A DNA stretch of 12,640 nt, from contig CAKPVW010000050.1 in NCBI GenBank assembly GCA_934196075.1, positions 1 to 12,640 of the forward strand, given 5' to 3'. The notes below the pieces were generated by a model. That model had not been told where the DNA came from, searched no databases, and saw nothing but the letters and a program-made list of their open reading frames with translations. The DNA is from an uncultured Anaerovibrio sp. (lineage in GTDB: Bacteria; Bacillota; Negativicutes; Selenomonadales; Selenomonadaceae). Shown here piece after piece: positions 1 to 12,640 of this stretch (the stretch's first letter is position 1; the number at the start of each line of letters is the position of its first letter). Both the position numbers and the translations under genes were made by a program.

Positions 1-225
1 CATGACACTTTTGCGTCAGGAGGCTTCCTGCTTTTGCGAAGCAAAAGTGAGCCCGGTGGCACTCTCTACAATTCCGGACTATGTGAATTGGCTCAGCGAC
101 AAGCGGTATCTGGGCGTAAGAATGAATCATCAGGTAGGGTCATTTAGCCGACAGAGCAAAAGTCGCCATGACCGCAGGCTGTCTCTCGAAAAACCTGGGA
201 TGCATGGCCCTGCAAATCAGAATTT
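1..225 (+). ncRNA. HEARO / IscB omega-RNA-like element, copy A (3' part only)
   Basis: About 225 bases matching, in inverted orientation, the 3' half of the larger element at 12169-12392; roughly nine bases in ten agree by eye, with one indel. The match stops sharply at AAATCAGAATTT (214-225), which marks a shared 3' boundary. A 9-bp stem (6-14 with 41-49, CACTTTTGC/GCAAAAGTG) is fully conserved, and a GTC/GAC hairpin near 159-169 keeps its stem while the loop differs between copies, as expected for a structured RNA. The 5' part lies left of the window. Open frames run through both copies but encode nothing recognisable. Assignment to the HEARO / IscB omega-RNA class rests on remembered sequence and on the fold of copy B; a non-autonomous repeat of another family is the alternative. 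Confidence 0.55.
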
Positions 226-6463: not shown

Positions 6464-7027
6464 ATGGAATATATGAATTTTCAGGTAGGCGAAAAATTCC
6501 CCCTGCCTATTAAGAATCAGGGGGATGGTGGTCTATTTCAAATTGACGCCAATGGCTGTATGTTTATTTTGCAGCTAAGCAAAACAGATGTAATTGCCGT
6601 AGAGGCATTCCGAACAGGAAAACTGGAGCTGGGCCTCTATGAGCAGGATGGTATTTTGTTCCTGCTTTATAAAATAGATGGCATCTTCAAAGATGGCTGG
6701 GGAGACTGCCCTCTCGGCATACAGCTTTTGCCACCAGGACTGAAACCCATTTTAGAAGATTTACAAGAGCCGGTTATGCACCTGTATCTGGTTGATACTA
6801 CCCTGCAAATTTTGCTGGCGCAGCGCACTGTGGAACTTTCAGAGGAGTTCTTTGACCAGCTTCGCAAAGCTGTAAAAAATCAGTTAGAGTCCTCTATGAC
6901 CTCTGGTGCCTTTGTTGCCATCCTACAGAAAATATGGGCTCAGCATACTTCAAAAGATATGAGTGAGCATTTATTAGCTCATCAGCACATAGAGATGAAA
7001 ATCCCGCCTATGTCACCAAAATATTAA
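6464..7027 (+). CDS. Unknown cytoplasmic protein (187 aa)
   Basis: 187 aa, not recognised. An excellent ribosome site (AGGAGG at 6453-6458, 5 bases before ATG) and coding-like composition support it as real. It lacks a signal peptide and membrane segments. The first 100 residues look like a compact beta-rich domain (FQVGEKFPLP, GGLFQIDANGCMFILQL, LELGLYEQDGILFLLYKI). A short GWGDCPLGIQLLPPG loop follows at about 78-92, then a mainly helical part (SEEFFDQLRKAVKNQLESS). It is transcribed alone or with the tiny gene at 7116, divergently from the metA operon and convergent with the PHP gene. Nothing in its surroundings gives a function. Confidence 0.7.
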   Translation: MEYMNFQVGEKFPLPIKNQGDGGLFQIDANGCMFILQLSKTDVIAVEAFRTGKLELGLYEQDGILFLLYKIDGIFKDGWGDCPLGIQLLPPGLKPILEDLQEPVMHLYLVDTTLQILLAQRTVELSEEFFDQLRKAVKNQLESSMTSGAFVAILQKIWAQHTSKDMSEHLLAHQHIEMKIPPMSPKY

Positions 7028-9184: not shown

Positions 9185-10177
9185 TCAGCCCTTACGTCCA
9201 TGATAAAGGCACCATGGCTCCTCTGCCATATAGTCCCCCTCATGGTAATAGGCCGCCCTAGCCCTGCATCCACCGCAAGCTCTCTTGTACTGACAGCTGC
9301 CACAGCCACCAGAATATTCCATAGTCCGCAGCTTGTTCAGGACAGGACTGTTTTTCCAAATTTCATCAAAAGGCGTCTGGCGCACATCCCCCAGCTCCAT
9401 ATTCAAATAAGCACAGGGCTGCACCTTGCCTCTAGGGCTAATTATACAATAGGCTGTACCAGCAAGGCAACCTCTGCGGAATCTGGTTTTCAACCCCATC
9501 TGGTCTGCAATGCGCAGAAATTGCGGTGCACAGGTTGGCTTTAGCTCAATATCCACCTGCTGCTGTTTTTTCATAATTCTCGTAAGGGTTTCCTCGTAGG
9601 CCTCTGCCCGCAAGGATTCTGCCTCAATGGTTTTTGCCCGTCCAGTAGGCACCAAGAAGAAGAAATGATGCGCCACTGCCCCTTCTGCCACGGCAAAATC
9701 TGTCAATGCTTCCAACTCATGATTGTTCCACTCCATAACAGTGGTATGTATCTGGAAAGGCAGTCCAGCTGCCCGACAATTTCTCATGCCCTGCACGGCA
9801 CCTTCCCAAGCTCCTGGGAATTTGCGAAACTTATTATGCTTTTCCTTGTCCATGGAATCAAGAGATATGCCCATACCCATGGCACCGGCAGCCTTTAGCT
9901 TTTGGGCCATTTCCAAAGTAATCAATGTCCCGTTAGTACCAAATACAGGACGCAGCCCCAAACTAGAAGCATAGGCTACCAGCTCCACAATGTCAGGACG
10001 CATCAAGGGCTCTCCCCCAGAAAAAATCATAATCTTGAAATTAGCTCTGGCAATCTGCTCCAGAAGTGTTTTGGCTTCAGCGGTGGACAATTCCTCCTCT
10101 GCCTTGCAGCCTGCATCTCGATAGCAATGGTCACAATACATATTGCAAGCATTGGTAGTATTCCATGAAACAATCAT
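9185..10177 (-). CDS. nirJ2: Radical SAM/SPASM-like protein NirJ2 (AhbD-like haem synthase candidate)
   Basis: 330 aa, cytoplasmic iron-sulfur enzyme. The radical SAM cluster ligands are C11, C15 and C18 (CNMYCDHC), with the SAM-binding GGEP at 54-57. The C-terminus holds cysteines at 216, 237, 244, 255, 292, 295, 301, 304 and 323, enough for auxiliary cluster(s) of the SPASM/twitch kind. The close relative AhbD removes two propionate carboxylates from Fe-coproporphyrin III to give haem b; NirJ of denitrifiers acts on haem d1. No nir denitrification genes are here, so a role in sirohaem-derived haem synthesis is the better guess. Its ATG overlaps the nirJ1 stop by 4 bases (ATGA), with GGAGGTG 7 bases upstream, so translation is coupled. 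A PqqE-like peptide-modifying enzyme is a less likely alternative. Confidence 0.85.
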   Translation of the reverse strand: MIVSWNTTNACNMYCDHCYRDAGCKAEEELSTAEAKTLLEQIARANFKIMIFSGGEPLMRPDIVELVAYASSLGLRPVFGTNGTLITLEMAQKLKAAGAMGMGISLDSMDKEKHNKFRKFPGAWEGAVQGMRNCRAAGLPFQIHTTVMEWNNHELEALTDFAVAEGAVAHHFFFLVPTGRAKTIEAESLRAEAYEETLTRIMKKQQQVDIELKPTCAPQFLRIADQMGLKTRFRRGCLAGTAYCIISPRGKVQPCAYLNMELGDVRQTPFDEIWKNSPVLNKLRTMEYSGGCGSCQYKRACGGCRARAAYYHEGDYMAEEPWCLYHGRKG

Positions 10178-11367
10178 TTGTCAGCACCTCCAGCAATGCC
10201 AATTTCCTCATCGGTTAGATAACAAGAGGGATCAGATTCCCAGAAATCACCTGTTACAGCTTCCGCTCTCGTGCGGAAATTGCCATTGCAATTTTCCAGA
10301 AAACGACACTGACTGCAGCGTCCCTTGAGCAATGCCTTTCTATCCTTCAACCCTGCCATAATAGGGTGGGAAGTGTCCTGCCAGATTTCACTAAATTTTC
10401 GTTCCCTGACATTGCCAAAGGTATGATGCTGCGTAAACTGATCTGGATGAACATAACCAAATGGATCTACCTCTCCAAAAGCAATACCGGAGCGATTGCC
10501 TCCGTTCATGGAAATATATTTCTTTATCTGGGCTGCCTGCTCTTCATTGCCTTCAGCAAGTGCCTTGAGATACATATAGACACCATCACAATGATTATCC
10601 ACAGTCAGGATTTCCTTTTCTAGACCTCTGTCCTCAAAATCCTTGGTACGGCGGATAATAATATCCATAGCCCGTCTAGATTCTTCTGCGGTAACATCCT
10701 GATTCTTCATGGCTGTGCCTCGACCGGAATAAACCAAATGATAGAAGCAAACTCGATTAATATTTTCCCGCTCAATAAAATCAAAAATATTGTCCAACTC
10801 CTGAATATTGTGGTGGTTAATGGTAAAACGCAGACCCACCCGCTGGCCTACAGCCACGCAGTTCTGAATACCCTCCATCGCTTTCTGAAAGGCACCCTCT
10901 ACTCCACGGAATTTGTCATTGACATCCTGCAATCCGTCAAGGGAAATACCTACATAGCCTACCCCAATATCCTTGATACGCTGGGCTGTCTCTCTAGTAA
11001 TCAAGGTACCATTAGTAGATAGCGTAGGACGCACTCCTTTGGCCTGGGCATATTCGGCCAGTTCAAAAAAATCTGGGCGAATCAAAGGCTCACCGCCAGA
11101 AAAAAGCAGTACCGGTACATGAAAATCTGCCAAATCGTCAATAAATGCCTTGGCCTCATCAGTGGTTAACTCATTCTGATACTTCTTGTTATCGGAGCTC
11201 ATATAGCAATGACGGCATTTCAAATTGCAGGTTTTGGTGGAATTCCATACCACCACAGGGCCCATGCCCTCGCCAGCGCCGTTCCGCATACTGTGGGCAT
11301 TCTTGGTATATCTCAGAGAATCTCCATAGTATTCTCTGGCAAATAAAAGCTTGGTTACACTAATCAT
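10174..11367 (-). CDS. nirJ1: Radical SAM protein NirJ1 (AhbC-like)
   Basis: 397 aa. The N-terminus MISVTKLLFAREYYGD is characteristic of the NirJ1 family. Radical SAM ligands are C47, C51 and C54 (CNLKCRHC), GGEP is at 91-94, and a C-terminal cysteine set stands at 260, 351, 354, 360 and 382. Its relative AhbC converts the acetate groups of 12,18-didecarboxysirohaem to methyls, giving Fe-coproporphyrin III, the substrate of AhbD. Encoded just before nirJ2 with a 4-base overlap, it should supply consecutive steps. I chose ATG 11367 from the family N-terminus; the in-frame GTG at 11376 has AGGA only three bases away, and AGGA is 12 bases from the ATG, so the site does not decide. The gene lies 99 bases after tetR on the same strand. 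The early pathway genes are not in this window. Confidence 0.87.
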   Translation of the reverse strand: MISVTKLLFAREYYGDSLRYTKNAHSMRNGAGEGMGPVVVWNSTKTCNLKCRHCYMSSDNKKYQNELTTDEAKAFIDDLADFHVPVLLFSGGEPLIRPDFFELAEYAQAKGVRPTLSTNGTLITRETAQRIKDIGVGYVGISLDGLQDVNDKFRGVEGAFQKAMEGIQNCVAVGQRVGLRFTINHHNIQELDNIFDFIERENINRVCFYHLVYSGRGTAMKNQDVTAEESRRAMDIIIRRTKDFEDRGLEKEILTVDNHCDGVYMYLKALAEGNEEQAAQIKKYISMNGGNRSGIAFGEVDPFGYVHPDQFTQHHTFGNVRERKFSEIWQDTSHPIMAGLKDRKALLKGRCSQCRFLENCNGNFRTRAEAVTGDFWESDPSCYLTDEEIGIAGGADK

Positions 11368-11428
11368 TTTATACACTCATCCTATTACAAAAATCACACA
11401 ATTTTACATACTCATAAATGACATTTGC

Positions 11429-11466: not shown

Positions 11467-12054
11467 TTACCCTTTTGCCCCTACGCAAATGCCATCGATT
11501 ATCAGCCTCAGCTTCATGGCAATATTTTCCTCAAAGCTTAGTGGGAGACTGCTAAAGGCTGCTGCCTGAAATAAGGAATGAAACATTTCTGTGATAATTT
11601 CTGCTGAAACATCCTGTCGAAACTCACCACTGGCTTGACCTTCCTGTACCAGCCGGAGGAACATGTCCATAAAAGCTGGGCCATGAGCGGCATGTTCTGA
11701 TCTGGCTCCAGCACTTAAAAATAGCGGTAAAACATATTTATTGCTGTCCACCAGCTTGGCTGTCATTAATATCATTTGGCGCAAAATTTCTGCTTTGCTT
11801 TCCTGTTCTGCTACTAACTGCTGTAATCTTTGGTGCAGCTGTACAGCCAAATTATCCAACAGACAATGCAGTAACTCGTCCTTGGATTCAAAATAATTGT
11901 AGAAAGTTCCTAATCCCATATGGGCGGCTTTCATAATATCCGCTATAGATGTTGCTTGAACCCCCTGCTTGATAAATTGTTCAATGGCTGTCTCCATGAT
12001 TGTGTTCTTAGCTAGAAGTTTTTTTTGCTCCCTTTTGCCAATGACATCAGCCAT
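11467..12054 (-). CDS. TetR/AcrR-family transcriptional regulator
   Basis: 195 aa, the usual family length. The N-terminal DNA-binding domain is clear: KNTIMETAIEQFIKQG helix, then the helix-turn-helix TSIADIMKAAHMGLGTFYNYF at 35-55 and ESKDELL. The rest is a helical ligand-binding and dimer domain with no recognisable ligand. Such proteins normally repress by binding a palindrome and let go on binding a small molecule; given its place directly upstream of nirJ1-nirJ2, a haem or tetrapyrrole signal is an attractive inference. GGAGGTG stands 7 bases before the ATG. It has its own promoter (12087-12115), and the 3' end of structured element copy B lies only about 55 bases beyond that promoter. 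Confidence 0.92.
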   Translation of the reverse strand: MADVIGKREQKKLLAKNTIMETAIEQFIKQGVQATSIADIMKAAHMGLGTFYNYFESKDELLHCLLDNLAVQLHQRLQQLVAEQESKAEILRQMILMTAKLVDSNKYVLPLFLSAGARSEHAAHGPAFMDMFLRLVQEGQASGEFRQDVSAEIITEMFHSLFQAAAFSSLPLSFEENIAMKLRLIIDGICVGAKG

Positions 12055-12086
12055 AAAAAAACACCTCCAAAATAACTCATTGCTAT

Positions 12087-12115
12087 ATTATATATGATAT
12101 TTATGGATTTTTAAA
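12087..12115 (-). promoter_or_regulatory. Promoter of the tetR gene
   Basis: Minus strand: perfect -10 TATAAT (12087-12092), a 17-base spacer, and TTTAAA (12110-12115) as a four-of-six -35. Transcription would start near 12080, 26 bases before the start codon. Confidence 0.6.
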
Positions 12116-12168
12116 GCAAAAAATGAATTGTGTTCATATTTTTCCTGCCACCCTAAAGTTGCATAAAC

Positions 12169-12575
12169 AAATTCTGATTTGTAGAGCCATACATACCAGT
12201 TTTTCGATGTACAGCCTGCGGTCATAACGACTTTTGCTCTGTCGGCTAAATGACCCTGCCTGATAATTTATCCTTACGCATAGATACCGCTTGTCGCTGA
12301 GCCAATTCACATAGTCCGGAATGGTAGAGAGTGCCACCGGGCTCACTTTTGCTTCGCAAAAGCAGGAAGCCTCCTAACGCAAAAGTGTCATGCCCCTCCG
12401 GCTGTTAACGAATCATCGTGATTTTCCTACTACAAATCGTCACAGCTGAGGCAGTACCCACGAAAACTCACTCCCGTTCCTAACTGAGCCTAGCGGATGC
12501 TAAATTCCTTCTGCGCCTTACGGCTTGAACTCATTAAGCACCGAGGCTCAGCAAGGGTTTTCTTAGGGTACTACC
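12169..12575 (-). ncRNA. HEARO / IscB omega-RNA-like structured element, copy B (complete, no iscB)
   Basis: About 400 bases that fold as a highly structured RNA on the minus strand. Helices seen: 12566-12572 with 12454-12460 (AGTACCC/GGGTACT); 12557-12562 with 12463-12468 (GAAAAC/GTTTTC); 12545-12551 with 12484-12490 (CTGAGCC/GGCTCAG); 12537-12542 with 12496-12501; 12527-12532 with 12502-12507; a GCC-GGC hairpin at 12515-12524; 12443-12447 with 12401-12405; 12397-12401 with 12316-12320; 12379-12387 with 12344-12352. The strings GAGTTCAAGCCG and CGTGGGTACTGCC match my memory of HEARO RNAs, the guide RNAs of IscB nucleases. In those systems the guide lies 5' of the scaffold (here beyond 12573) and iscB follows 3'; here tetR follows instead. 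So this is a stand-alone or non-autonomous copy. The class name needs a covariance search; the folding does not. Confidence 0.6.
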
Positions 12576-12640
12576 ATCTGCTGTTCCATTCCAGCCAGTT
12601 CGCAAAATATTCAAGTTGTGCCAAGGCGGGAAATTGCTGT
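12571..12640 (-). CDS. Possible 3' end of a gene entering from the right edge
   Basis: Twenty-two codons are open to the window edge and stop at TAG (12571-12573). The residues include ALAQLEYFANWLEWNSRW, which looks protein-like, but a frame this short stays open by chance about one time in three. The stop codon overlaps the first helix of RNA element B, as if the element had inserted at the very end of this gene or the guide segment were taken from it. Confidence 0.3.
   Translation of the reverse strand, partial: QQFPALAQLEYFANWLEWNSRW

Follow-up and report, generated by a model that had tools for sequence, protein, structure and literature searches.

The described systems closest to the locus considered here are MITEs, REP/REPIN repeats and the omega-RNAs of HEARO/IscB. 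Bacterial MITEs, according to passages of PMC10969869, are non-coding, multi-copy and intergenic, carry inverted ends and give transcripts predicted to fold strongly. REP/REPIN sequences are characterized in parts of PMC3733652 (compare also PMC3116915) as dispersed palindromic intergenic repeats that frequently form inverted dimers, and stems of 5-13 bp are given in the portion of PMC3733652 concerned. HEARO/IscB omega-RNA (RF02033), as portrayed in sections of PMC9755519, is a non-coding, structured RNA of considerable size (~200 nt), of which certain genomes carry many copies. The window, i.e., the whole stretch of 12,640 nucleotides that was analysed, comes from an uncultured Anaerovibrio sp.; its segment 12169-12575 had been read as a stand-alone guide RNA of the HEARO/omega-RNA class or a non-autonomous mobile element. 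The best explanation overall, which is held with good though not full confidence, is that the segment forms the 3'-terminal part of a MITE-like, non-autonomous transposon. One of its modules (X) is probably kept folded as RNA, and the segment is not a guide RNA.

Folding of 12169-12575 was confirmed as real structure. Both the minus-strand fold (-143.9 kcal/mol, z -4.59) and the plus-strand fold (z -3.22) were better than any of 100 shuffles, the advantage being greater on the minus strand; covariation of modules X and Y was computed on the minus strand. No long gene is present in the segment, which contains short ORFs only. The tetR-family gene at 11467-12054 (minus strand) is situated downstream of the structured segment, and no IscB-type nuclease was found among the 12 main window ORFs scanned. 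Two adjacent radical SAM/SPASM genes (9185-11376, minus strand) adjoin tetR. Searches for a plasmid or phage origin gave no match, and the exact patterns were absent from viral contigs.

Table 1. Features of the element and its surroundings in the window.
Feature	Position	Strand	Remark
Module X, ~125-nt branched hairpin, outer stem GGTAGTACCC/GGGTACTGCC	12450-12575	minus	dispersed structured repeat
Module Y, large hairpin, closing stem ACAGCC...GGCTGT	12211-12405	minus	common to window 1-225 and A. lipolyticus copies
Terminal inverted repeat, AAATTCTGATTTG as plus-strand sequence	12169-12181		one end of the element
Upstream part of the element, common to two A. lipolyticus copies	12576-12640	minus	includes the supposed guide stretch
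Second element copy, 3' part	1-225	plus	terminal repeat at 213-225
tetR-family regulator gene	11467-12054	minus	TetR_N match; neighbour of the element, not part of it

The sequence of 12169-12392 recurs in inverted orientation at the opposite end of the window with 92% identity over 225 bases. For each copy a single element end is visible inside the window, and the 5' end of the element under study falls outside it, past 12640. Both window ends would accordingly lie inside repeat copies, as expected if assembly had stopped at repeated sequence. The possibility that 1-244 encodes a protein was rejected: no Pfam family was matched, and an in-frame stop is found in the other copy in the window. 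Twelve short database "proteins" (P0001-P0012) were also set aside, as they look like translations of the module Y repeat, i.e., annotation artefacts.

A pattern derived from the repeat matched eight bacterial genome stretches, six of them in A. lipolyticus An883, one in A. slackiae and one in a Selenomonadaceae MAG. When the segment was searched against three Anaerovibrio-group genomes, at least 47, at least 41 and at least 40 matches were obtained, falling into two blocks. Block X (12450-12575) accounts for nearly all matches listed in the MAG and A. slackiae, and block Y (about 12201-12417) for the majority of those listed for A. lipolyticus; the two blocks are separable modules. Copies in A. 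lipolyticus start with AAATTCTGATTTG and finish with its complement, and the 12169 edge coincides exactly with this terminal end. The extended end, at two mismatches or fewer, occurs 70 times in A. lipolyticus, compared to 0 for the reversed control. Eleven distinct inverted-end pairs, 583-1110 bp apart, were found in the relatives (ten in A. lipolyticus, one in A. slackiae), so that terminal inverted repeats are present at both ends, as in MITEs.

A second element family with other ends is represented by 88 near-matches in the MAG and 86 in A. slackiae, and X in these two genomes is mostly located within second-family elements. The dinucleotide TA stands directly outside 27 of 57 second-family ends, against a background of 6.1%. 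No transposase was recognised inside the elements, as judged from the ORFs of five spans, four of these ORFs having been scanned against Pfam. The IS630 domain DDE_3 was matched in none of three genomes, in all of which the control was positive, so the mover could not be assigned to an IS630 transposase.

The MITE-like explanation is based on the multi-copy occurrence, the inverted ends, the lack of a recognised protein and the separable hairpin modules. A transposase acting in trans would move the element through its terminal repeats, and the second family would probably insert into TA. Several observations count against it: no transposase was found together with element ends, the search for a parent transposon with the same ends being negative in three draft genomes; TA stands directly outside just 5 of 60 first-family ends; and covariation in Y is low. 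In the last case, 18 copies with a mean column identity of 84% were compared, and both sides had changed in 3 of 56 predicted pairs. The predicted Y fold is plausible, and the alignment tests it little because the copies are so similar. In distinct Y arms, G-U exceeds A-C mismatches by 7 to 3, a weak lean in the same direction as in X.

Some second-family spans enclose other sequences. In genome G002 an end pair (L044 285-1819) surrounds an ORF (L044 679-1260) whose translation, by eye, closely resembles that of the window ORF 6464-7027; the latter belongs to no Pfam family. In two further spans (L041 1100-3225 and L042 302-2466) more than 2 kb separates second-family ends, with small ORFs encoding a tRNA_anti-like domain, a Cro-type HTH and an MmeI_N fragment, one each. 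These spans may represent two elements flanking genes instead of cargo.

The structure of X was analysed with 27 of 91 distinct profile hits, chosen for diversity and aligned by sequence only (a 28th, L053, was dropped). RNAalifold predicted 31 pairs, of which 14 had changed on both sides. With a 39-pair structure specified by the analyst, 93.3% of cells were paired and 18 of the 39 pairs had changed on both sides; the paired cells, the both-side changes and the covariation score were equalled in none of 500 shuffles, and pairing fell to 34.7-45.4% with slid partners. The value for further pair types was equalled by 22 of 500 shuffles. As the X copies are related, neither the compensatory changes nor the mismatch counts given below are independent events. 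In seven copies of genomes G025 and G053 (L114, L115, L117, L118, L119, L144 and L145) a CCTTAATGTAAAT-like sequence is shared immediately 5' of X and is preceded in several copies by a small hairpin; the X RNA may extend further 5' in these copies.

The closing stem of X varies from site to site, with the arms still complementary. For 37 copies the mean arm duplex energy was -17.25 kcal/mol with the own partner and -6.94 kcal/mol with the arms of other copies; the own arm was the best partner in 22 of 37, and the arm of another copy was as good or better in 15 of 37. Acquisition by each X copy of a private stem from its target through inverted duplication was considered. Two A. lipolyticus loci (L003 and L030) have one arm where others have two, as such an origin could suggest. 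However, deletion between short direct repeats accounts equally well for both, and shorter versions of X at the groEL site resemble deletions.

The preference for own arms, as well as the abundance of inverted pairs, could also be explained if X were a DNA-level hairpin, i.e., a cruciform or single-strand substrate whose arms are kept matching by arm-to-arm copying. In a DNA hairpin, G-T and A-C mismatches are expected to be equally tolerated, while RNA favours G-U. On the X strand, 61 copies contained 67 G-U and 19 A-C mismatches, with 28 copies leaning towards G-U and 8 towards A-C. This set comprises 58 of 72 X matches and three alignment rows; seven opposite-strand echoes, L149 (2), L053, L135, L124 616-747, L122 631-848 and L063 633-719 were left out. 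A set of 58 copies retrieved with nothing but the sequence profile yielded 37 distinct pairs of outer arms, in which 30 G-U and 2 A-C mismatches were counted. Such inequality is contrary to the DNA-level hairpin, which is considered improbable. The G-U excess hints at selection acting on a minus-strand RNA; strand-biased deamination is an alternative source of it.

The X covariance model at E <= 1e-3 matched 39 of 151 family genomes, a figure that includes several weak single hits and all 16 genomes of the nearest genus; at E <= 1e-5 it matched 8 of 250 genomes of the class. Each genome of the nearest genus has between 3 and at least 21 scored copies. X occurs alone and within two element families, frequently as inverted pairs. 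No Rfam 15 model matched X, either in the window or in those relatives that were scanned, and cmscan of 13 X-bearing loci gave nothing at the X copies while recovering glmS in L128 and L156. Titles and the beginnings of abstracts in the literature searched, whose coverage excludes most subscription journals, revealed no paper on the X repeat. For 42 solo copies, whose neighbours were called with heuristic ORFs, the gene on the 3' side is antisense in 28 cases and sense in 11, and in the other 3 no gene was called there. As regards X as an intrinsic terminator, TTTT follows 11 and AAAA precedes 9 of these 42 copies, raw counts that speak neither for nor against such a role.

At the groEL-glmS site, inspected over 330 bases past the stop in each of the 15 genomes where groEL was matched, X is complete in three, differently truncated in three and, by eye, absent in nine. 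The X stems of G007 and G008 at this site differ by paired changes. This compensatory change, the RNA-like mismatch bias and the occurrence in all 16 genomes searched of the nearest genus would agree with X being a host structured RNA class (a regulatory or 3'-end element) merely picked up by transposons. Completeness in only three of 15 genomes means, however, that no single copy is essential at that site, and the genes beside the copies vary widely; this origin is regarded as rather unlikely, though less so than the DNA-level hairpin. A related description receives somewhat under even credence: X could be a family of structured RNAs in Selenomonadaceae that is as yet undescribed, selected as RNA and spreading partly via two transposon families with unrelated ends. 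Within the MITE-like explanation, X would be kept folded as RNA transcribed from the minus strand of the window, and this RNA would most likely be a 3'-end or antisense structure rendering read-through of the insertion harmless.

Dispersed intergenic hairpins in frequent inverted pairs are reminiscent of REP dimers (as depicted in part of PMC3733652), and X could be regarded as a repeat of the REP/REPIN kind for whose mobility a Y1 (RAYT-type) transposase is responsible. This is very doubtful: Y1_Tnp was unmatched in six of the 16 genomes of the genus (G005, G007, G008, G012, G013 and G014), each of which has 3-16 X matches, and no X match was found in 21 loci around Y1 genes.

The guide-RNA half of the earlier interpretation could not be upheld. 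In the covariance search which it had itself proposed, RF02033 had no match in the window at the gathering score, and none in 12050-12640 at E <= 10, HEARO having been recovered in L167 and L168 as cmscan positive controls. In the nearest genus HEARO was detected in 0 of 16 genomes, in a scan where the positive controls were silent, and RRXRR, the iscB domain, exceeded the cut-off in 0 of the same 16, a set to which the source genome does not belong. The supposed guide stretch (12573-12595) is identical at 20 of 23 positions in two A. lipolyticus copies; as these lie at other sites, it is not a variable 5' guide. The notion of a stand-alone omega-RNA served in trans by a distant IscB could still appeal to the large non-coding RNA-like fold adjoining a non-nuclease gene, and to the presence of HEARO and iscB elsewhere (above the cut-off, HEARO in 9 of 300 class genomes and RRXRR in 13 of 151 family genomes). 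The same figures show that both models perform in related taxa. A diverged member could also escape RF02033, which in one survey, as reported in a section of PMC9755519, matched only 65% of the 5' UTRs of HEARO nucleases. Against this stand the missing RF02033 match in the window, the absence of HEARO and above-cut-off iscB from the 16 genus genomes, the guide stretch kept at other sites and the occurrence of X in all 16 iscB-less genomes, which leave the notion next to no credibility. The segment 12169-12575 is not a HEARO/omega-RNA by any test applied.

The mobile-element half of the interpretation is supported: the element is multi-copy, has terminal inverted repeats, and contains no recognised transposase. 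Further copies, for which a search had been suggested, were found at 1-225 and in large numbers in Anaerovibrio-group genomes, and both the covariation across homologues and the conservation of helices in related copies, which had been named as tests, are present in X.

Side observations were made on RRXRR and HEARO in the relatives. Two sub-threshold RRXRR matches lie in ORFs of ~1050 residues in L039 and L040 (genomes G005 and G014); the start of the L039 ORF resembles that of a Cas9, but a 580-residue part of this ORF matched no Pfam family. Genome G102 (contigs C47, C13, C54 and others; L167) has seven HEARO and five RRXRR matches, none adjacent, separated on shared contigs by about 7, 12 and 52 kb, and may thus present a stand-alone-type HEARO/IscB arrangement elsewhere in the family. 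For G107 (six HEARO) and G119 (two HEARO) there is no RRXRR among the matches listed.

A false omega-RNA is thereby removed, and in its place stands a testable branched repeat with strong compensatory change and an RNA-like G-U bias, common to two transposon families and to all 16 genomes searched of one genus. The question raised is whether a useful RNA is being distributed by mobile elements, or whether an element is rendered harmless by the RNA it carries. For comparable folds, a search for repeats is advisable ahead of any guide-RNA proposal.

Compared with the known systems, the element agrees with omega-RNA in being a large, structured, non-coding and multi-copy sequence, but differs in having no sequence or structure match to HEARO, no iscB (in the 16 genus genomes) and no variable guide end. 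X shares with REP/REPIN the dispersed palindromic intergenic character and the frequent inverted dimers; unlike them, it is ~125 nt long, branched and present in genomes without a Y1_Tnp match. The element resembles bacterial MITEs in all the properties listed for them at the outset; the difference is that two families here share the branched X, which also occurs solo, with no parent insertion sequence identified for the element.
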